Part shown: one piece after another, positions 41,489 to 54,327 of the stretch
Numbering within the stretch: the stretch's first letter is position 1
How the letters are laid out: each line of letters starts with the position of its first letter
Assembly: GCA_900142905.1 (NCBI GenBank)
Contig: FSRV01000002.1
Span: 4,154,001-4,218,000 of the forward strand
Length of the DNA: 64,000 nt
Direction of reading: 5' to 3'
Source: Burkholderia sp. GAS332
GTDB lineage: Bacteria > Pseudomonadota > Gammaproteobacteria > Burkholderiales > Burkholderiaceae
Position numbers and translations under genes: made by a program
The notes under the pieces: model-generated
Database searches by the model: none
Told to the model about the DNA's origin: nothing
What the model saw: only the letters and a program-made list of their open reading frames with translations

Positions 41489-42256
41489 TCACCGCCCGGC
41501 GCTCGCGCGTTCGTGGTGCCACGCGAGCAGGTTGCGTTCAATGCGGAAAAACAGTGTTTCGATGCACAGCGCAGCGATGGCGATCACGAGGATCGTCGCG
41601 AGACCGGCAGCGATCTCGAACTGCTGCTGTGCCGTGACAATAAAATTGCCGATACCATTGGTGGACAGCAGCATCTCGGCGCTCACGCTGATCAGCAACG
41701 ACAGCGCCACGCTGATGCGAATACCGCTGACGATCTGCGGCAGCGCCGCCGGCAGGTCGATGCGCCACATGATCTCGCTGCGCGACAGGCCAATCGAGCG
41801 GCCGACGTTGATCAGCAACGGATGAGTCGCACGTGTCGCATCGATTGCGTTGATGAGGATCGGGAACGCCGCGCCGTAGAACACGACAAGGATCTTTGCC
41901 ATGCTGCCGGTGCCCGCGAACAACATCACCACGGGCACGATCGCGAGCGGCGGAAGCGGGCGCACCAAGTCGAGCAGCGGTTCGACGAACGAGGCGAGCG
42001 AGCGCATCCGGCCAAGGCAGATGCCAAGCGGCAGCATGGTCACGAGCGACAGCGCGAAGCCCGCGCTCGCGCGCACCAGCGTGATGCCAAGCGCTGGCGC
42101 CAGTTCGCCGGCATGGCGAACCAATGCTGCCACGACATCGATGAATCCCGGATAGTTCTGTGAATTGACCAGCCGTGCCGACACTTCCCACGCAGCCGCC
42201 AGCAACACCAGGAAAACGATGCCGGGAACATTTGTGCGTTTTGCGAGCGCTCTCAT
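41489..42256 (-). CDS. ABC transporter permease, SsuC/TauC-type
   Basis: 255 residues with about six helices. The EAA loop reads NVGRSIGLSRSEIMWRIDLP, which contacts the ATPase, as in the NitT/TauT group. It overlaps the upstream permease by 4 nt (ATGA), so the two are made together and form the membrane pore as a heterodimer. GISxSVALSLLISVSAEML-like sequence in the fifth helix is typical. Confidence 0.85.
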   Translation of the reverse strand: MRALAKRTNVPGIVFLVLLAAAWEVSARLVNSQNYPGFIDVVAALVRHAGELAPALGITLVRASAGFALSLVTMLPLGICLGRMRSLASFVEPLLDLVRPLPPLAIVPVVMLFAGTGSMAKILVVFYGAAFPILINAIDATRATHPLLINVGRSIGLSRSEIMWRIDLPAALPQIVSGIRISVALSLLISVSAEMLLSTNGIGNFIVTAQQQFEIAAGLATILVIAIAALCIETLFFRIERNLLAWHHERASAGR

Positions 42257-43020
42257 AGTTGCACCATCCTTGTGAGACTCTCATGCCATGGCACCGTGAG
42301 GGCGCGCAAACGCAGCACGGCCTGGTTGAAGAGCAGACCGTTGAACCCGGCGACGACCAGCAACGCGAACGTGTCCGCGGTGCGCATCGAGAACGCGCTG
42401 TCGTACAGCATGTAGCCGATGCCGTCGCTGCCGGCGAGCATTTCTGCTGCGATCGTCGCGATCAAACAGTCGGCGACGGCGAGACGCACGCCTGTCAGCA
42501 TCGCCGGCATCGCAGCGGGAACCCGTACTTGCCACAGGATTTCCCACGCGGAGTAGCCCAGCGTCCGTGCGCTTCTCAGTTGCACGGGCTCGTTGTCCGC
42601 CAGCGCGGTTGCCGCACTGACGTACACGGTCCACACGCCGGAGAAACAGACGATGAAGAGGAACAGCTTCATACCGAGCCCGAGCGCGAAGATCGACAGC
42701 GGCACGAGCGCCGCAGGCGGCAACGATCGCATGATGTTGACGACGGGCCGAAGCGCGTCTTCCACCAGACGGTGACGCGCGGCAAGCACGGCCGCCGCGA
42801 AGCCGATCGCGACTGCCGCGATGAGGCCAATCAGTGTGCGCATCAGCGTGAGGGGTTCGTTCTGCCAGAATTCGCTCGAACGTAGTTGGCCCACGAGTGC
42901 CTCGAACACGGTGCCCACGCCCGGCATGTACTCTCTCGGCACGTGGCCGCTCCACACCGCGAGCTGCCAGACGGCGCAGCCGGCGAGAAATCCGATGCAC
43001 GGTTTCATCCATTGTTTCAT
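42253..43020 (-). CDS. ABC transporter permease, SsuC/TauC-type
   Basis: 255 residues with six helices and the EAA loop RSARTLGYSAWEILWQVRVP. It is the partner of the downstream permease (4-nt overlap). The first helix is preceded by a short basic N-terminus (MKQWMKPC). Such pairs import small organic acids, sulfonates or amines. Confidence 0.85.
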   Translation of the reverse strand: MKQWMKPCIGFLAGCAVWQLAVWSGHVPREYMPGVGTVFEALVGQLRSSEFWQNEPLTLMRTLIGLIAAVAIGFAAAVLAARHRLVEDALRPVVNIMRSLPPAALVPLSIFALGLGMKLFLFIVCFSGVWTVYVSAATALADNEPVQLRSARTLGYSAWEILWQVRVPAAMPAMLTGVRLAVADCLIATIAAEMLAGSDGIGYMLYDSAFSMRTADTFALLVVAGFNGLLFNQAVLRLRALTVPWHESLTRMVQL

Positions 43021-43086
43021 CGCATCACCTTCGTTTGATGCATTGGTCGGATCCGCGACGAAGCATGACGGCCTCGTCGCGTCGCA

Positions 43087-44067
43087 TCATTTCGCGTTCA
43101 CGTCCGCCACGAGACTGTTGGCGTCGAGCGGCTCATGCAGCAGCCCGTTGCGCGTCATCGAGTTGATCAGCGGGCGCAGCGAGGCGGCATCGGGTGTCAA
43201 GTCGCCCCAATCGAAGTAATGCGTCACCTGGTGCGCCAGTTCCGGCGTCAACTTGAATTCGCTGACCAGCCACTGCTGATAGAGATCGGGATTCGCGCGA
43301 AAATCGGCGCTCGCACGGGCCAGCACGCGGTTAAAGCGCTGCAATACGTCCTTGTGCTGTTGCACCCAGTCTGCGCGCGCAAACAGCACGTCGAGCGCGA
43401 TTCTCTGGTCGGCCGGGAGATCCGCCACAACGCCGGATGCAAGGGTGACCGCCTGGATAGCCGGTGACATCTTTGCGGCGGCATAGAACGGTTCCGAGAT
43501 GCACGCCGCGTCAGCGTTGCCAACTTGCAGCATGCTGCCCATCTGCGGCATCGGCACGATGATCTTCTTGACGGCGTCGTAGGGCACGCCCGCCTTGGCG
43601 AGATGGTCCTTCACCAGCAATTCGCAGATCGCGCCCGTGGCATTGATTGCGATTGTCTTGCCGCGCAAGTCTGCCAGCGTATGGATGTTGGATGACTTGC
43701 TCGCGACGATCCACACGTCCTGCTTGCCGGCCGCGCCATACTCATAGTCGAGGGTGTCGACGATCACGAACGGCTGGTTGCGCGCCCGCGCGAAGATGAC
43801 GGGGATGATGCCCGCGTAGCCGATGTCGACCGACCCGCTCGCCACCGCGCTTGCTACCGCCGGGCCGGACCCGAGCGTCACGAGTTCAGGCTTGAGACCT
43901 TCCGCGGCGAAATAGCCCTTCTTGTCCGCGTAGTAGAGCCGAATCATCGAGTCGGCGCGTAAATCGCCGATCTTGATCGTCGTTTGCGCGCTGGCTATCG
44001 ATGGGGTCACCGCTGCGGCAGCGACGCCGGCAAAAAATAAAGCGCAACTGATCAAGCGCTTCCACAT
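43087..44067 (-). CDS. ABC transporter substrate-binding protein, NMT1/SsuA-like
   Basis: 326 residues. A signal peptide ends at about ASA-Q28. The mature protein starts with IKIGDLRADSMIRLYYADKK and has GSGPAVASAVASGSVDIGYAG, the usual pattern of SsuA/NMT1 proteins that bind sulfonates, nitrate-like ions or pyrimidine precursors. Its ligand here is unknown, but the neighbouring transaminases suggest an amino compound. AGGAGACA precedes the ATG. It is transcribed from the same operon as the permeases. Confidence 0.85.
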   Translation of the reverse strand: MWKRLISCALFFAGVAAAAVTPSIASAQTTIKIGDLRADSMIRLYYADKKGYFAAEGLKPELVTLGSGPAVASAVASGSVDIGYAGIIPVIFARARNQPFVIVDTLDYEYGAAGKQDVWIVASKSSNIHTLADLRGKTIAINATGAICELLVKDHLAKAGVPYDAVKKIIVPMPQMGSMLQVGNADAACISEPFYAAAKMSPAIQAVTLASGVVADLPADQRIALDVLFARADWVQQHKDVLQRFNRVLARASADFRANPDLYQQWLVSEFKLTPELAHQVTHYFDWGDLTPDAASLRPLINSMTRNGLLHEPLDANSLVADVNAK

Positions 44068-44088
44068 GATTGTCTCCTGAAGTTTTCG

Positions 44089-44101
44089 TTGATTGAATCA
44101 A
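44089..44101. promoter_or_regulatory. Palindrome upstream of the binding-protein gene
   Basis: TTGATTGAATCAA is a perfect 13-bp palindrome, 21 nt upstream of the binding-protein start codon inside the 103-nt gap after the ATPase gene. It shares the TTGA...TCAA ends of the IclR-type sites at 46468 and 48950 but has a shorter core. It could be an internal operator of the operon. Confidence 0.3.
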
Positions 44102-44170
44102 TTCGGGGCTGGCATCGCGATGCGACCAGAACAGGCCGGCGCTACGTCGATAGCCGACCGCGCGCGCGGG

Positions 44171-45055
44171 TCAGGCTTGCGTGCGCATCTGGTGGATCAT
44201 CGCGAGGATCTTGTGCCGCAGGTCGAGAAAGCCACGGTCTTCGCGGGTCTCGAGTTGCGTGCGCGGTTTCGCGAGCGTTACCGCGAACTCCGCCGCAACC
44301 ACGGTCGGTCGCCGCGACAGCACGACGACGCGATCGGCCATGTAGATGGCCTCGTCGACGTCGTGCGTGACCAGCACGCAGGTTTGCTGGTAGCGCTTCG
44401 CGAGGTCGAGCAGCAGGTCCTGCATCTCGGCGCGTGTCTGCGCGTCGACCGCCGCGAGCGGTTCGTCGAGCAAGAGGAGCCGCGAACGGGCCGCGAGCCC
44501 GCGCGCAATCGCCACGCGCTGCTGCATGCCGCCGGACACCTGCCACGGATAGTGACGCTCGAAACCCGTGAGGCCAACGCTGGCCAGCAGTTCTTGCGCG
44601 TACTCAAGCTTTTGGGCCCGGTTGAGATCCTGGGCCCGCTTCATACCGAAGACGACGTTGTCGAGATTGCTCTTCCACGGCAGCAGCGAACGGCTGTAAT
44701 CCTGGAAGACGACCGACACACCGGGGGGCGGCGCGCCGACGGGCTTGTCGTCGAACATGACGGAGCCGCTGTCCACTGCGTAGAGGCCGGCAAGACACAT
44801 CAGCAACGTGGTCTTGCCGCAGCCGGACGGGCCGACGATCGAGAGGAACTCGCCTTCGCGGGCGTCGAACGACAGATCGCCGATGATCTGATTGCGCTTG
44901 TCTCCCTCGCCCAGGGTTTTGGCAATGCGCTGTACCTTCAATAGCGTTCGCATCGTGCTAGTGGCCCGGTTGAGCGTCGCGAAGTCGGACACCCGGCTTG
45001 GTTCGATCGGTTGCGACGCTGACGCGTCGCGCTGCAGTTTCAAATGCGCTTGCAC
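44171..45055 (-). CDS. ABC transporter ATP-binding protein
   Basis: 294 residues. Walker A is GPSGCGKTT, the signature is VSGGMQQRVAIARGLA, Walker B is LLLLDEPLAAVD, and the H-loop is VLVTHDVDEA. It drives the two permeases encoded downstream. GTG 45055 has a very good ribosome site (AGGAGGAG), so the protein carries about 34 residues before the conserved start MRTLLKVQRIAK, and I prefer this to ATG 44953. Confidence 0.85.
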   Translation of the reverse strand: MQAHLKLQRDASASQPIEPSRVSDFATLNRATSTMRTLLKVQRIAKTLGEGDKRNQIIGDLSFDAREGEFLSIVGPSGCGKTTLLMCLAGLYAVDSGSVMFDDKPVGAPPPGVSVVFQDYSRSLLPWKSNLDNVVFGMKRAQDLNRAQKLEYAQELLASVGLTGFERHYPWQVSGGMQQRVAIARGLAARSRLLLLDEPLAAVDAQTRAEMQDLLLDLAKRYQQTCVLVTHDVDEAIYMADRVVVLSRRPTVVAAEFAVTLAKPRTQLETREDRGFLDLRHKILAMIHQMRTQA

Positions 45056-45083
45056 TTTTCTCCTCCTGCGTGGCTGTCCGTGC

Positions 45084-46454
45084 TCAGTCCGCCGCGATCG
45101 CGGCGAGACCGGCGTGCAACCCGTCCATGCTCTGGTCGACGTGCTCTTTGTTAAAGACGAGGGGAGGAGACAGGATGATCTTGTTGCCCGCGATGCGCAC
45201 CAGCAAACCATGCGCGCAGATCGTCTCGTAGAGTTTCTTCGAAGCGGGGTGGGTCGGCGGCAGTGGCGCCCGGGTTGTCTTGTCGAGCACCAGTTCGATG
45301 CCGAGCATCAGCCCTTTGCCGCGCACGTCGCCGACTTGCCTGTATTGCAGCAATTCCTGCAGGCGTTCGAGGAAATAATCGCCCTGGCGTCCGGCATTGC
45401 CCGGCAGGTCCTCACCCTCGACGATATCGAGGTTGGCGAGCGCGGCGGCGCAGGCGAGGGGATGCCCGGAATAGGTATAGCCATGCATGATTGCCGCCAG
45501 CGGATGGTCGTTTTCCCACGCCTGGGCGACGCGCTCGTTGACGACCGTCGCGCCGAGCGGGACGTAAGCGGAATTGATGCCTTTCGCGAAGTTCATGATG
45601 TCGGGGGCCACGCCCCAGGCGCGTACACCGAACATGTGGCCGGTACGCCCGAAACCGGTCACCACCTCGTCGGCGATCAGCAGGATGCCGTGGCGATCGC
45701 AGATTTCGCGTACGCGCGGCCAATAGGTCGCGGGTGGCACAATCAGACCACCCGCACCTTGCACCGGCTCGGCGACGAAAGCCGCGATCGTGTCCGCGCC
45801 CTGATACAGGATTTCCTGTTCCAGCAGGTCGGCGCAGATCCCGGCCAGCTTGTCGGGATCATCGGTCCAGCGGTTGCGATACAGATAGGGCGCCTCGACC
45901 TGGAAGAAGCCGGGCACGAGCGGCTCGTACGCGCGGCGCCACATGACGTTGCCGCTTGCTGACATGCCGCCGAAATGCAGGCCGTGATAACCGTGCTTGA
46001 GCGAGAAAATCTTGGTCTTCTCGGGTTTGCCTGAGAGCTTCCAATATTGGCGCGCGAGCTTGAACGCGGTTTCGTTCGCGTCCGATCCACCGGAGCCGTA
46101 CATCACGCGCGCCATCTTCTCCGGCGCGAGCATCTTGATGAGCCGGGCCGACAGCGCAATTGAAGGCGGATTCGACAGGTTGGAGAACGTGCCGTAGTAC
46201 GCGAGCTGGTCCAGTTGCTCGACCATCGCGCGTTTGATCTCGGGGCGGTTGTGGCCGACGTTGACGCACCACAGGCCGGCCGTGCAGTCCAGGTAGGTCT
46301 TGCCTTCGATATCGCGAACCAGCACACCGTCGCCTTGCGCGATGATGGTCGGAGGCGTGGCTTGGGTGGCTGCGGGAGCCGTCATCGGATGCCAGATGTA
46401 GCGCGCGTTGTCGGCTACAGTGGAGGCCCGATCGGATACGGGATTGCTGAACAC
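45084..46454 (-). CDS. Class III omega-aminotransferase
   Basis: 456 residues. The PLP site has YGSGGSDANETAFK, ADEVVTGFGRTG and NFAKGINSAY with Lys291. LWCVNVGHNRPEI near residue 61 is typical of omega-amino acid:pyruvate and polyamine transaminases. It is the first gene of the minus-strand operon, 28 nt before the ATPase, and it probably starts breakdown of the imported amine by making an aldehyde, which the aldehyde dehydrogenase on the other side of the IclR gene could oxidise. It is divergent from that IclR gene. Confidence 0.85.
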   Translation of the reverse strand: MFSNPVSDRASTVADNARYIWHPMTAPAATQATPPTIIAQGDGVLVRDIEGKTYLDCTAGLWCVNVGHNRPEIKRAMVEQLDQLAYYGTFSNLSNPPSIALSARLIKMLAPEKMARVMYGSGGSDANETAFKLARQYWKLSGKPEKTKIFSLKHGYHGLHFGGMSASGNVMWRRAYEPLVPGFFQVEAPYLYRNRWTDDPDKLAGICADLLEQEILYQGADTIAAFVAEPVQGAGGLIVPPATYWPRVREICDRHGILLIADEVVTGFGRTGHMFGVRAWGVAPDIMNFAKGINSAYVPLGATVVNERVAQAWENDHPLAAIMHGYTYSGHPLACAAALANLDIVEGEDLPGNAGRQGDYFLERLQELLQYRQVGDVRGKGLMLGIELVLDKTTRAPLPPTHPASKKLYETICAHGLLVRIAGNKIILSPPLVFNKEHVDQSMDGLHAGLAAIAAD

Positions 46455-48966: not shown

Positions 48967-48984
48967 GTCTCTAGGAGAGTGAAG

Positions 48985-50181
48985 ATGAGGCGTGTGTCTT
49001 GTGGGCTGGTGTGTCTTGCGGCTTCGATCGGTGTCGCTCATGCGCAGAGCAGCGTGACGCTGGCGGGCGACATTACGACGGGGATTGCCTATGTCAGCAA
49101 CATGGGATCGGCTTTCAGCTGGAATCCCTATGCAAGCAACCCGGGACAAGGTCACGCCTATCGATTTCTCGATAACAATTCGACCGGCAGCCGCTTCGTC
49201 CTGAAAGGGACGGAGGACCTCGGTGGCGGCGTCGCGGCGATCTTCAATCTGGCAGACGGCTTCAAGCCATCGAACGGCGCGTTCGCGCCGGGTGCCGGTG
49301 GCCGGCTGTTCGGCTCGCAGGCCACGGTCGGTCTGCGCAGCGCCAATGTGGGTACCGTCACGTTCGGCCGCCAGTACGATCCGACCCAGGATCTCGTCGC
49401 CATGTACGCATCGGATAACGACTGGGCCGGGACCATCGGCGGTCACGTGGGCGACTCGGACAATTTCGATGGTTCGTTCCGGGTCAACAACTCGGTCAAG
49501 TACATGAGCCCCGAATGGGCAGGCTTGAGCGTGGGCGCGTTGTACGGCTTCAGTAATCAGGCCGGCGGCTTCAGCAACAACAGCGTGTGGTCCGCCGCCG
49601 CGGGCTATCACAATGGCCCGCTCGGGTTGGGTGTCGGCTATATGCGTCTGAACAATCCGGACAGTGCGACCAACCAGGCCGGCGCGGTCGGCGCGTTGAA
49701 CGGGGTTGGCTCAACCGACGACTATTCGAATCCGTTCACGACAAATCCGTTCGGCGCGCTGGTCGCGAAGCAACAGATCGTCAGCGCGGGCGGCGCCTAT
49801 ACGATCAAGAACGCAACGATCGGTGCGACTTTTTCGGATGTTCAGTATAACTATCTAGATCAGACGAGCCTGCATCTGCAGAATTACGAGCTGAACTTCA
49901 AATACTCGCTGACGCCTTCGCTCGTGCTCGGTGCGGCCTATCTGCTGACAGACGGCAAGTTTTCAGCGACACCGGGTATGGAGAACAAGAAACCGAGGTG
50001 GAACCAGATCAATCTTGGTGCCGATTACAACCTCTCCAAACGCACCATGGTGTATCTCGTGGGTGCGCTGCAGAAGGCCAACGGGGACGCCCGCTACGCC
50101 GCGCTGCAACCGTCACTGTTTCCCTTCTCGTCCTCGAGCAAACAGTTTGTGATCACGGCGGGGATAGATCACAGGTTCTGA
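48985..50181 (+). CDS. Gram-negative porin, OmpC-like
   Basis: 398 residues. A signal peptide (GLVCLAASIGVAHA) ends before QSSVTLAGDITTGIAY. The rest is a 16-strand barrel with the typical SRFVLKGTEDLGGGVAAIF, VGLRSANVGTVTFGRQYDP and a terminal Phe (AGIDHRF). It lets the pathway's substrate through the outer membrane. AGGAGAG precedes ATG 48985. The palindrome in its promoter links it to the IclR regulator. Confidence 0.9.
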   Translation: MRRVSCGLVCLAASIGVAHAQSSVTLAGDITTGIAYVSNMGSAFSWNPYASNPGQGHAYRFLDNNSTGSRFVLKGTEDLGGGVAAIFNLADGFKPSNGAFAPGAGGRLFGSQATVGLRSANVGTVTFGRQYDPTQDLVAMYASDNDWAGTIGGHVGDSDNFDGSFRVNNSVKYMSPEWAGLSVGALYGFSNQAGGFSNNSVWSAAAGYHNGPLGLGVGYMRLNNPDSATNQAGAVGALNGVGSTDDYSNPFTTNPFGALVAKQQIVSAGGAYTIKNATIGATFSDVQYNYLDQTSLHLQNYELNFKYSLTPSLVLGAAYLLTDGKFSATPGMENKKPRWNQINLGADYNLSKRTMVYLVGALQKANGDARYAALQPSLFPFSSSSKQFVITAGIDHRF

Positions 50182-50289: not shown

Positions 50290-51114
50290 CTACTGGCGTG
50301 CGACCGGCGTGAACCCGTAACGTGTCAGGACGTCCTGCGCCTCCGGGCTCATCAGGTACAAGGCAAGCCGGTAAGCGGCGTTTTGCGTGGTAGCGTTTTG
50401 CGGCAACTCCAGCACGGTCATGCCATAGTCTGCGGAGATGCTGAGGTTGGCCGGCAGTTCGACCTGCACCAGAGTCGAATCGGGCTTTGTCTCGTGAGAG
50501 CTGCAATAGCCGATGAAGACATCGACACGGTGGGTCGCCATAAAGTATTTCACGGGATTCTGACCCGCCGGAACCTGAGGCGCTGCTGCGCCACCCACTA
50601 GCTGCTGCGCTTTCGCTTCGAGAATCTGCTTCGCTCCGGGGCGAACTGAGTCGGCTTTCGCGAACAATTCCCATGCATAGTCACCGCCCGGGTCTGCCTT
50701 CGGTGTTGAAGTGCCGATCTTTACATTCGGATCAAGCAGTTTGTCGAGCAGATTGTCCGTTGTGAGGCCGACGTCCGGGCGGGCCTGAACACACACCCGA
50801 TTCCTCGCAAAGACAATAGTGGGCGCAGCCTTTCCTTCGGCCGTCAGGCGCTGCGGGTGCGCCATATTTGCGGAAACGAAAATATCCGCCTTGGCGGAAT
50901 TCTCGATCTTGTTCAGGAGAAGACCTGCTGGCCCTGTAACGAGATCAATCTTCTGGCCAGACTCCGCGGTGTATTGATGCGTGATCGTGGCGAGTGCGCC
51001 GCCCATGCTTCCAGCAGCATAGATCGTGACAACCGCTGAGGCGGGCGCTTGCTGCGCCGACGCGATGCCCATGGTGCTGCCGAGCGCGACGGCAAGGAGG
51101 GTGCGAAAAACCAT
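50290..51114 (-). CDS. ModA-like periplasmic binding protein
   Basis: 274 residues. A signal peptide (FRTLLAVALGSTMGIASA) is followed by VVTIYAAGSMGGALATITHQ and GPAGLLLNKIENSAKADIFVSAN, which match ModA, the molybdate-binding protein (Ser/Asn/Ala contacts near the start, ADxFxSA loop). The C-terminus is longer than in E. coli ModA. It follows a TonB-dependent receptor gene after 13 nt, with no permease or ATPase gene nearby. The pair probably delivers a molybdate-like oxyanion from the outer membrane to a transporter coded elsewhere. Confidence 0.8.
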   Translation of the reverse strand: MVFRTLLAVALGSTMGIASAQQAPASAVVTIYAAGSMGGALATITHQYTAESGQKIDLVTGPAGLLLNKIENSAKADIFVSANMAHPQRLTAEGKAAPTIVFARNRVCVQARPDVGLTTDNLLDKLLDPNVKIGTSTPKADPGGDYAWELFAKADSVRPGAKQILEAKAQQLVGGAAAPQVPAGQNPVKYFMATHRVDVFIGYCSSHETKPDSTLVQVELPANLSISADYGMTVLELPQNATTQNAAYRLALYLMSPEAQDVLTRYGFTPVARQ

Positions 51115-51127
51115 ATGTCAGCCTTGT

Positions 51128-53254
51128 TCAGAGATTGATTTGTAGCGAAGCGCGGACGGTACGAGGCGCGCCAAGCGTGCCTGTACCGTAGTCAGAACCG
51201 GTGTAGCCATTTTGTCCACTCGGCGTGATGTTGGCCCAGTACTGGCGGTTGGTAATATTGTCGATGGCAAGGCGCAGCGTCACTGATTTGCCGGCAATTT
51301 TCGTTCTGTAGCGCGCACCGAGATCGAAGACGGTATAGCCGTCGACATAGTCGGTGTTCGTATAGTTGCCTGGCCGATGGCTTGCGTAGTTCATGTTGAC
51401 GTTGAACCCGAGACCGGCGACGGCCGGCACGGAGTAGTCAAGCAGAGCATTGAATACGACGCGCGACAGCCCGAGGATCTGTTTATCGCTGGTAGACGCC
51501 GAGCCCGTGTCGAACAGGCGGGGATCGAGTAGCGAGATCCCCGTGAAGATGTTGAGATCTCGTGTCACCGCGCCTGTCGCGGTCAGTTCAAGTCCACGAT
51601 TAACTTGTTGACCTTGTTCAGCAAAAACGTTGTTCGGACCTACATAGGCGTACGGTCGCTCGATGCGGTAAAGGGCGGCGCCGAGCGTAACCTGGCTCAC
51701 ATCGACCTTGTAGCCCAGTTCCCATTCTTCGCTTCGGTACGGAGCGAGGCTATCTCCCGCATTGGCTGATCCCGCTGGAGCAATGTCCCCCTGTTGAAGA
51801 CTGTCAGCGTACGTCAGATACGCCGTCATATTATCTTGCGGCTTAAACATCAGACTGGCCGTCGGGCTGATGCCGTCCGCGTTGTACTTGCTGGTCGTCG
51901 CGCCTTGCTTGCTGTAGTTCTCAGTGTGTATCCAGCTCTGGCTTGCGGCCAGTAGCGTTGACCAGTATCGGCCGAATCCAATCGTGTCCCCGACGCTAAT
52001 CGACTGCTGGACCGTGTTGGAGGACAGATATCGATTTGAGAAATCGGGCAGCGGAGGTTTCGCAAAAGACAGCGGGTCGTTGATGCTTGCACTACCGAGC
52101 GTAATCGCGCCCGTTTGATACGGCGTATACCGATTCCAGTAGAAACCCGTGGTTGACACGAAGACGTCGTGTGACAGGCCTGCGAGCTCGGTGTGGCCAT
52201 TCAGCGCGATGGTGTTGCTGACGATCGTGTCCAGGCTGTACGTGGTCGTCGCGGTGGTCGTCGTATAGGCGCCGGTCTTGCTGGTGATGGTGTTGGTCGG
52301 CACGGTCGACGCACGGTCGTTCGTCTCTCTCAGCACGCCGGCGCTCAAGTGCCAGTCCTTGTTGAAGTCGTGCTTCAAGGTGGCACTGAACATGTTGGTG
52401 ACGTTGTCATCACCCGCCCACGATTGGCCGTAGCCCGGACGTGTAGGATCGGGCGCACTGGGAAAGGGCACATTGCGCGCCAAAGCAAACGTTCCTGGGA
52501 AGCCAGTCGACAGGTAGTGGTACGTGCTGAAATTGGTCTCAAGCGTCGTGTCCGGGGTGAAACGAACGTCGAACGCGAGGCTTGCCAATTCTCTGCGCAG
52601 GCGACTGCCCTCTACGTATCCCTCGCCGTTCTGGTTGAGCAAATTCAGCCGATACCCGAAGCGGTCGTCGTTGCCGAAGTGTCCTCCGAGGTCCAGATGT
52701 TCAGTCAAGGACTGGCGTGACTCGTAGCCGACCGTGAACTCGCGTAACGGCTCGGCGGTAGGCCGTTTGAGCACGTAGTTGAACGTGCCGGCAGGACTGG
52801 CGGGCCCGTACAGGGCACCGGCCAGGCCATTTAGAACCTCGATCTGCTCGAATTGCTCGATCGGATAGTCCGTAGTCGCGGCGATATTCAGGCCATCAAT
52901 CCGCGTGTTCTGGACAACCCCGGCTTGCATCCCTCGAGTCTGCGGGCGGATATTTTCGCCCTGAACCGTCGGGACGAAGCGAAACGCTTCCCGCACGCTC
53001 TGGAGTTGCTGATTCTCCGCGAGCGATGAGGGGACGACGGTAATTGAGTACGGCGTGTCAAGGAGATCCTTCTCGCCTAATGGTCCAACTTTCGTTCGGA
53101 CGATCTGATACGACGGGTATTGAGTGGGCGATATCCCAGTGATGACCACGGGTGTGAGTTGGATTCCGTCGTCCTGAGCATGGACTGAGAATGTCGCGCC
53201 CATCCCCGCTGATACGAGGGTGAGCGCCTGAAAGGCGTTGATTGAGCGAGTCAT
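51128..53254 (-). CDS. TonB-dependent outer-membrane receptor
   Basis: 708 residues. A signal peptide is followed by the plug domain (TPVVITGISPTQYPSYQIVR, then DTPYSITVVPSSLAENQQ) and a 22-strand barrel that ends in RTVRASLQINL, with the usual final aromatic-like strand (here Leu). By sequence it is of the siderophore receptor type. The downstream ModA-like gene and the ModE-type palindrome in its promoter suggest that the ligand contains molybdenum rather than only iron. No Fur-like box is visible. Confidence 0.85.
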   Translation of the reverse strand: MTRSINAFQALTLVSAGMGATFSVHAQDDGIQLTPVVITGISPTQYPSYQIVRTKVGPLGEKDLLDTPYSITVVPSSLAENQQLQSVREAFRFVPTVQGENIRPQTRGMQAGVVQNTRIDGLNIAATTDYPIEQFEQIEVLNGLAGALYGPASPAGTFNYVLKRPTAEPLREFTVGYESRQSLTEHLDLGGHFGNDDRFGYRLNLLNQNGEGYVEGSRLRRELASLAFDVRFTPDTTLETNFSTYHYLSTGFPGTFALARNVPFPSAPDPTRPGYGQSWAGDDNVTNMFSATLKHDFNKDWHLSAGVLRETNDRASTVPTNTITSKTGAYTTTTATTTYSLDTIVSNTIALNGHTELAGLSHDVFVSTTGFYWNRYTPYQTGAITLGSASINDPLSFAKPPLPDFSNRYLSSNTVQQSISVGDTIGFGRYWSTLLAASQSWIHTENYSKQGATTSKYNADGISPTASLMFKPQDNMTAYLTYADSLQQGDIAPAGSANAGDSLAPYRSEEWELGYKVDVSQVTLGAALYRIERPYAYVGPNNVFAEQGQQVNRGLELTATGAVTRDLNIFTGISLLDPRLFDTGSASTSDKQILGLSRVVFNALLDYSVPAVAGLGFNVNMNYASHRPGNYTNTDYVDGYTVFDLGARYRTKIAGKSVTLRLAIDNITNRQYWANITPSGQNGYTGSDYGTGTLGAPRTVRASLQINL

Positions 53255-53280
53255 GGAACTTGAGGTTTCTACTTTTGTGT

Positions 53281-53304
53281 CGTTGTATCCGCCTATATAT
53301 AACG
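53281..53304. promoter_or_regulatory. ModE-box-like palindrome upstream of the TonB receptor
   Basis: CGTTGTAT (53281-53288), 8 nt, and ATATAACG (53297-53304) make a 24-bp inverted repeat with one mismatch. The E. coli modA operator, as I recall it, has the same layout (CGTTATAT, 8 nt, ACATAACG). It lies 26 nt upstream of the receptor start, where bound ModE would block transcription when molybdate is plentiful. The assignment rests on this similarity and on the ModA-like gene in the operon. Confidence 0.6.
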
Positions 53305-53387: not shown

Positions 53388-54221
53388 TCAAGCCTTCAAC
53401 GGCAGCCAGATTTCGAGCCCACCCATACCGCTGACCGGATCGAACTTCTCGTCATAGCGCTCGAAGTTCGGCGCATCGGCAGGCACATGTCCCGACGCCG
53501 GCAGCCATTGATTCCAGATCGTGTTAACGGTGCGCCGGATCGTCGAGATATGCTCGCGATGGCTGAAAACCGCATACCGCTGCGCGGGAATACGTACGCG
53601 GCTCAACTCGGCGGGCAGCGCCGAAAAGTCGCTGACTTCGACGCCGCACAGGTAGTCGAAATTGCCCGCATCATCCGCGTTGTAGCAAACGCCGTAAGCT
53701 ACGCCGCCTACTTGCCCCGGCACCTTGCCGTAGTAGGCGCCAAAGCGCTGCCATTGCGAGGGAATGGCGGTGCTGGTGTCGCAGGTATAGCGCTCGCTCA
53801 AACCCGCAATGAGAAACGGTTTGCCGTCTTCGAAACGCGGCGGTTCGAGATGCGTGAGAAGGGTTTCGTCCATTTTGATCGGCTCCACGAGGGTAAGGTT
53901 GTCGAGGTGACCACGCGCACGCAGCGTTTCGGGTGTGAGTCCGAACTGCTCGCGAAACGCGCGCGTGAATGCTTCGTGAGAACCGTAACCGGCGTCGATG
54001 GCGACCGTCAGGATGTCGGGTGCGCCGCCGGCGAGGCGACGTGCCGCTTCGCTCAGGCGGCGCGCGCGAACGTAGCGCATCACCGATAGCCCGGTGGCCG
54101 CTTCGAAAGCACGCGCCAGGTGAAAACGCGACACGCATCCACAATTGGCGATGTCGTCGAGCGTTAGCTCGCGGGCAAAATGGCTTTCGATAAACCAGAG
54201 TGCTTTTCCAACGGGGTTCAT
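53388..54221 (-). CDS. AraC family regulator with GyrI-like effector domain
   Basis: 277 residues. The AraC helix-turn-helix pair is N-terminal (IESHFARELTLDDIANCGCV and IAIDAGYGSHEAFTRAFREQ in family terms), and the C-terminal half (about 125-277) is a GyrI/BmrR-like ligand domain (IWNQWLPASGHVPADAPNFE, ending GLEIWLPLKA). Such proteins respond to drugs or antibiotics (Rob/SbmC type). The DHA2 exporter gene follows upstream on the same strand, a possible target. AGAG precedes ATG 54221. Confidence 0.8.
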   Translation of the reverse strand: MNPVGKALWFIESHFARELTLDDIANCGCVSRFHLARAFEAATGLSVMRYVRARRLSEAARRLAGGAPDILTVAIDAGYGSHEAFTRAFREQFGLTPETLRARGHLDNLTLVEPIKMDETLLTHLEPPRFEDGKPFLIAGLSERYTCDTSTAIPSQWQRFGAYYGKVPGQVGGVAYGVCYNADDAGNFDYLCGVEVSDFSALPAELSRVRIPAQRYAVFSHREHISTIRRTVNTIWNQWLPASGHVPADAPNFERYDEKFDPVSGMGGLEIWLPLKA

Positions 54222-54327
54222 ATCGGCTCTCATGTCTGCATGAAGCCAGCATAGCCAGGTGCGGTGAGGCGCATTTGATCGCGCTTGCGGTTTTGCGATT
54301 GTTTTTCCGATTAACCCTGATCGGTCG

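Follow-up and report, generated by a model that had tools for sequence, protein, structure and literature searches.

A predicted ModE-controlled pair of a TonB-dependent receptor and a ModA-like protein in Burkholderia sp. GAS332, probably serving molybdenum acquisition

Uptake of metals by TonB-dependent outer-membrane receptors (TBDTs) was described, in an excerpt of PMC8602904, for copper (OprC, via CueR) and manganese (MnoT), both systems being induced at low metal. For molybdate, the same excerpt reported a route in Pseudomonas aeruginosa that involves the H2 type VI secretion system (H2-T6SS), a secreted ModA and the metalloproteinase IcmP. Since TBDTs controlled by their own metal are already known, a ModE-controlled molybdenum receptor is a variant of that arrangement. 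Here, a TBDT gene and an adjoining gene for a ModA-like periplasmic binding protein were analyzed in a 64,000-nucleotide stretch of Burkholderia sp. GAS332 (contig FSRV01000002.1, positions 4,154,001 to 4,218,000), referred to as the window. The gene order given by the first-pass annotation, a receptor gene followed after 13 nt by the ModA-like gene, was confirmed, as was a 24-bp palindrome located 26 nt upstream of the receptor start codon (Table 1). It was concluded from the gene pair, the predicted operator and its conservation, a ModE gene in the genome, the ModA-type fold and a second branch of receptors with predicted ModE sites that the two genes quite probably form a ModE-controlled operon for high-affinity molybdenum acquisition.

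Table 1. Coordinates of the receptor, the binding protein and the predicted operator in the window
Feature	Position	Strand	Basis
TonB-dependent outer-membrane receptor (TBDT)	51128-53254	-	708 aa; PF07715 plug and PF00593 barrel; TIGR01783; AlphaFold model
ModA-like periplasmic binding protein	50290-51114	-	274 aa; PF13531; TIGR01256
ModE-type operator (palindrome, predicted)	53281-53304	-	coding strand CGTTATATATAGGCGGATACAACG; E. coli consensus match; genus conservation

The palindrome had the form CGTTGTAT-N8-ATATAACG, its arms differing by one mismatch. It was compared with the Escherichia coli ModE consensus ATCGNTATATA-N6-TATATANCGAT, as given in an excerpt of PMC545781, of which the inner 24 bp were used for scoring; all E. 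coli consensus scores below refer to this form. The palindrome differed from it at two positions and was the only match with up to three mismatches in the 64 kb, when shuffles of the window contained 0.07 such matches on average and 7 of 100 had one. Taken alone, this consensus match was only suggestive of a ModE site. When the whole 10.4-Mb genome was scanned with the pattern CGTTATAT-N8-ATATAACG, it occurred with at most one mismatch in three places, namely in the window and at two sites bordering a molybdenum gene cluster. With up to three mismatches, 22 places were found against 10 for a reversed control pattern, and many of the weaker matches were therefore likely due to chance. The genome encoded 22 receptors with a plug domain, and the TBDT of the window was the only one with a site of up to three mismatches within 10 kb. 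A scan for a sigma-70 promoter over the palindrome found none; a TTGTTA-N18-TATATA arrangement overlapping it was noticed by eye, matched the consensus at 8 of 12 positions and was not claimed as a promoter.

A full-length ModE gene was present at C2:3530687-3531523, directly after a canonical modABC operon (C2:3528408-3530577), and its product combined a helix-turn-helix (HTH) domain with two TOBE/Mop domains. The latter scored 146.5 bits against TIGR00638 (cut-off 55), the HTH part 94.7 bits against TIGR00637, slightly below its cut-off of 98.5, and the best full-length model, PRK10676, gave 177.9 bits with a cut-off of 369. An operator of the same layout as the palindrome of the window, CGCTATAACCTTTCATATATTACG, began 74 bp upstream of modA. 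Among 144 genomes of the genus, 102 matched the ModA query at E 1e-60, and in the 30 best loci, all from close relatives of at least 91% identity, an operator started 72-74 bp before modA in every case. Further, the cluster bordered by the two other pattern matches, a second molybdenum cluster besides modABC, was located at C2:1430.2-1437.3 kb (L013 4211-11341) with four palindromes in or beside it, three of which had at most two mismatches. The genes at C2:1430-1438 kb encoded a PF13531 binding protein, a fused ATP-binding cassette (ABC) permease-ATPase, a protein with a molybdopterin-oxidoreductase domain, a NifQ domain protein, a DUF2325 protein and an HTH-only ModE-like protein.

Relatives of the TBDT were detected in 23 of the 144 genus genomes, and in 15 of these the receptor gene adjoined a ModA-like gene (type A). 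The palindrome was retained upstream of 14 of the 15 type A pairs with zero to three mismatches to the genome scan pattern; the spacer was always 8 nt long and its letters varied. The only pair lacking it, in G124 (L058), had a receptor gene without its front. Another decayed receptor gene, that of G087 (L049/L059), was split in two with a stop and still had the palindrome; at these decayed loci the neighboring ModA-like gene matched over its full length. The remaining eight genomes lacked the ModA-like gene, and their receptor was about 50% identical (type B). No site was found in the 400 bp before the type B receptor in any of them. When longer stretches were searched by tblastn, a FecCD-type permease and an ATPase gene before the receptor and a PF01497-type protein after it were recorded in all eight, and a site with three or four mismatches to the E. 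coli consensus preceded the permease each time. ModE was present in 15 of 15 type A, 7 of 8 type B and 131 of all 144 genus genomes; because it is so common, its association with the pair within the genus was uninformative. The interpretation of the first-pass annotation, that of a molybdenum uptake pair under ModE, was thus supported at the level of sequence by the presence of ModE, by the conserved palindrome and by the like operator of modA, all of which it had named as points to be checked; none of its refuting conditions that could be examined in sequence applied, and control of the pair by a ModE-type protein appeared strongly indicated.

Beyond the genus, a genome scan yielded 97 receptor relatives, of which 80 were kept as named loci. 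They came from Burkholderiaceae, Oxalobacteraceae, Nitrobacter, Beijerinckia, Caulobacter, Sphingomonas, Acetobacter, Luteibacter, Rhodanobacter, Nitrotoga, Pseudomonas, many Enterobacterales and a few Acidobacteriota. By tblastn, 32 loci had a ModA-type partner, 12 an upstream permease and 21 a PF01497-type partner without an upstream permease, while no partner was found in 15. A site was counted when it had at most four mismatches to the E. coli consensus and lay within 400 bp before the first gene of the operon. Such a site was present in 64 of the 80 loci (in the order of the classes above, 29/32, 12/12, 18/21 and 5/15), compared with 13 of 1696 control segments of 430 bp taken elsewhere in the same loci and 60 of 4000 dinucleotide shuffles. 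As the loci are related, the 64 sites do not represent independent events; both their spacer sequences and their distances from the gene varied. The PF01497-type loci without a site were L093, whose contig ends before the permease, L116 and L130, and among the ten partnerless loci without one were all six from Acidobacteriaceae and L125, which is a partial gene.

A tree was built from 79 receptors, L066, L075 and L125 having been excluded as too short. Clade A (32 rows, Shimodaira-Hasegawa-like approximate likelihood ratio test (SH-aLRT) support of 100) included the receptor of the window, and all its rows had a ModA-type partner. Clade B (35 rows, SH-aLRT 99) had a PF01497-type partner in 31 rows, and some of its operons combined a FecCD permease, an ATPase and the PF01497 protein. 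Sites were found in 29 of 32 rows of clade A, in 34 of 35 rows of clade B and in 1 of 12 rows outside both. The predicted ModE mark thus followed both clades despite periplasmic partners from different families, and no other argument for molybdenum as their shared theme was as strong. In this respect the evidence went beyond the first-pass annotation, as the predicted site belonged to a receptor family of many genera, in two clades and with different periplasmic partners. These receptors were best read as a family of ModE-controlled TonB-dependent importers of molybdenum, or possibly tungsten. The PDB matches of the clade B PF01497 protein included Haemophilus influenzae HI_1472 (3psa/3psh, E 2.3e-13). 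HI_1472 is MolA, a binder of molybdate and tungstate.

Two side observations concerned particular loci of this set. The L066 contig was binned as a metagenome-assembled genome (MAG) of Rudaea and carried a receptor piece that was 100% identical to the receptor of the window in the best segment; the contig was probably mis-binned. In the Citrobacter loci L119, L120, L121 and L126, a second palindrome with three mismatches was located beside the receptor unit, and in L120 (9198-11325) it preceded a second run of PF01497, FecCD and ATPase genes.

The neighborhoods of single loci also contained molybdenum genes. In Rhodanobacter L080, modABC lay upstream of the pair, and on the downstream side were DUF2478 and another FecCD gene. 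In Herminiimonas L083, a full-length modE was located about 4.6 kb from the pair, and a divergent gene adjoining the pair encoded a 159-aa ModE-HTH protein (81.3 bits against TIGR00637, cut-off 98.5). The Sterolibacterium MAG locus L116 (3357-5607) had an MFS_MOT1 molybdate transporter one gene away and, in divergent orientation to the receptor operon, an HTH plus PBP_like regulator. In the Geobacter MAG locus L130 (5842-13109), genes for the receptor, PF01497, FecCD, ATPase, TonB, ExbB and ExbD formed one run, and in Rhodocyclales L078 the ModA-like gene was followed by a FecCD permease gene. The molybdenum link at L080, L116, L130 and L078 was drawn from the neighbors, because no clear site was present there.

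The following course of events was proposed. The TBDT, powered by TonB, would carry a scarce molybdenum species across the outer membrane, the likeliest form being a complex of molybdate with a small chelator; molybdate, tungstate and a molybdenum chelate were the candidate cargoes. In the periplasm, the ModA-like protein would capture molybdate and pass it to an ABC permease encoded elsewhere, probably ModBC. The two genes would be co-transcribed, and ModE loaded with molybdate would bind the palindrome and repress the operon when molybdenum is plentiful. A broader proposal, that an unnamed TBDT family for molybdenum complexes extends over Alpha-, Beta- and Gammaproteobacteria under ModE-type regulators, with either ModA-type or PF01497/MolA-type plus FecCD modules, and supplies the uptake side that has been missing from molybdophore use, was put forward tentatively and with a little more doubt than belief. 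It includes a distant receptor of one species located beside a type I polyketide synthase (PKS) gene, whose product is a possible chelator maker. This locus, L180 9936-19505 (G012 C49), comprised a receptor of 38% identity with a site directly upstream (two mismatches to the E. coli consensus) and, separated by one small open reading frame, a 2116-aa type I PKS with KS, AT, DH, KR and ACP domains; it is a possible molybdophore locus.

Several observations weighed against a molybdenum role of these receptors, some of them general and others in favor of a particular alternative. An excerpt of PMC8264917 presents molybdate as thought to reach the periplasm via porins. The family was patchy, the pair occurring in 15 of the 144 genus genomes, and a scan of the class at E 1e-180 matched one of 369 genomes, that of the window itself, a strict and thin scan with at most three candidates scored per genome that supports no more than the word rare. 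Sites were lacking at the type A loci L078, L080 and L084; Rhodanobacter L080, located by modABC, Sterolibacterium L116 and Geobacter L130 were thus without one. Finally, the type B genome G127 had the operon and its site and no full-length ModE at E 1e-40.

The last observation bears on the identity of the regulator. In G127 the best ModE-HTH match sat in a 222-aa frame, and with a site and only this short ModE-type match the regulator there may differ. An HTH-only ModE-like protein, such as that of the second molybdenum cluster, could likewise be the direct regulator of the pair instead of full-length ModE, which would be compatible with the proposed transport. The cluster protein at C2:1435550, encoded between the cluster palindromes, matched ModE-HTH with 80 bits and no TOBE domain was found there, and the divergent Herminiimonas protein would be of a similar kind. 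However, modA, which lies beside the full-length modE, bears an operator of the same layout, and full-length ModE accompanied every type A pair of the genus, though it is present in most genus genomes anyway. Regulation by a short protein was considered unlikely on balance.

It was also considered that the TBDT imports an iron-siderophore, in which case ModE would couple the iron supply to the demand of molybdenum enzymes or nitrogenase and the ModA-like gene would be a separate co-regulated gene. The family score and the fold of the receptor were in favor of this. Besides its plug and barrel domains, which scored above cut-off and identify it as a TonB-dependent receptor, it reached 251.2 bits against the TonB-siderophore model TIGR01783 (cut-off 223.5). 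The AlphaFold model (mean predicted local distance difference test score (pLDDT) of 81.8) had the iron-siderophore receptors FemA (template modeling (TM) score of 0.81), BauA and FhuA as its nearest solved folds. The clade B partners are PF01497 proteins, which are also used for siderophores, heme and B12 and are not specific for molybdenum, and the top PDB matches of the clade B protein were the generic periplasmic protein 4ovk and the iron-complex protein 4hn9, with HI_1472 third. On the other hand, the partner was of the ModA type throughout clade A, and modABC, modE or MOT1 genes were located nearby in single loci. The absence of a Fur-type site noted in the first-pass annotation was also upheld: with the Fur consensus, including the form given in the PMC545781 excerpt, the best match in about 445 bp upstream of the TBDT was 10/19, which was also the score reached most often by 300 base-shuffled sequences and thus no better than a typical shuffle. 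Import of an iron-siderophore was judged improbable, and molybdenum import was retained as the reading of the pair.

The ModA-like protein had a ModA fold and scored 69.6 bits against the TIGR01256 modA model (cut-off 62.5) and up to 255.9 bits against PRK03537-type molybdate models, below their cut-offs. The oxyanion ligands of E. coli ModA are Ser12, Ser39 and Tyr170; Ser36 and Tyr203 were retained in the ModA-like protein, and the position of Ser39 was occupied by Ala63. Sulfate-binding proteins stood just 1-3 Z units under the best ModA match of its model, a further point against the molybdenum reading. Import of tungstate or another oxyanion instead of molybdate was favored by tungstate-bound ModA/WtpA structures, which ranked with the best matches to the model, and by an alanine at the Ser39 position in 18 of 18 aligned members, which also counts against the molybdenum reading. 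Against it, the operator layout was shared within this genome by modA and by the cluster with NifQ and a molybdopterin-oxidoreductase domain, and it was regarded as very unlikely. As a separate observation, Cys 108 and Cys 204 were conserved in the 18 aligned ModA-like proteins and not in the canonical ModA of the genome.

The surroundings of the pair in the window were also inspected. The first-pass annotation had stated that no ABC permease gene is present; this stood for the pair itself, as no ABC genes adjoining it were seen by eye and neither ModB nor ModC was co-encoded, but not for the window, which holds an ABC unit at 41489-45211. Its ATPase was assigned by a Pfam scan (PF00005). Inspection by eye added two permeases and a binding protein and placed the unit in the nitrate/taurine/sulfonate kind; it was located amid aminotransferase and dehydrogenase genes, about 5 kb or more past the ModA-like gene with other genes intervening. 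The AraC/GyrI-like neighbor (53388-54233) was rejected as a regulator and as part of the unit, because it was present in 1 of the 14 loci examined. A porin gene (48979-50181) was likewise rejected, distant homologues being found in 2 of the 14.

Predicted ModE operators recur on this receptor family across many genera, which suggests that molybdenum uptake at the outer membrane is an active, energy-consuming process in some bacteria. Among the best 120 of 1034 protein records of the family, those with a name were siderophore, iron-complex or plain TonB-dependent receptors, with one ferrichrome receptor. If the suggestion holds, receptors now named siderophore receptors would be re-assigned, and a handle would be gained on the entry of molybdenum chelates into cells, with relevance to nitrate use and nitrogen fixation where molybdenum is scarce. 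The question of a receptor for molybdenum-siderophores would become directly testable. A ModE-controlled TBDT was not recognized among the titles and abstract openings listed by the literature searches, an earlier prediction being possible; Studholme and Pau 2003, reportedly on ModE sites, would be the obvious place for it.

Compared with described systems, the pair resembles the E. coli-type ModABC system under ModE in its ModA-type binding protein, the 24-bp operator layout and the presence of ModE, whereas its operon is without ModB and ModC and is headed by an outer-membrane receptor. With the TonB-dependent siderophore receptors (TIGR01783; FemA, BauA, FhuA) it shares the plug, the barrel, the fold and the above-cut-off score, and it differs from them in the ModE-type operator, the ModA-type partner and a Fur-like site that was not found. 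The H. influenzae MolABC system is approached by some clade B operons, which contain an HI_1472-related PF01497 protein, a FecCD permease and an ATPase; unlike it, the operon of the window encodes a ModA-type protein and has the TBDT as part of the unit. The P. aeruginosa H2-T6SS/ModA/IcmP route, as presented in the PMC8602904 excerpt, likewise joins ModA to an outer-membrane partner for molybdate, with a secreted ModA and the IcmP metalloproteinase there and a TBDT here. OprC and MnoT, known from the same excerpt, are alike in that a TBDT takes up a metal under the control of that metal, the metals and the regulators being different ones.

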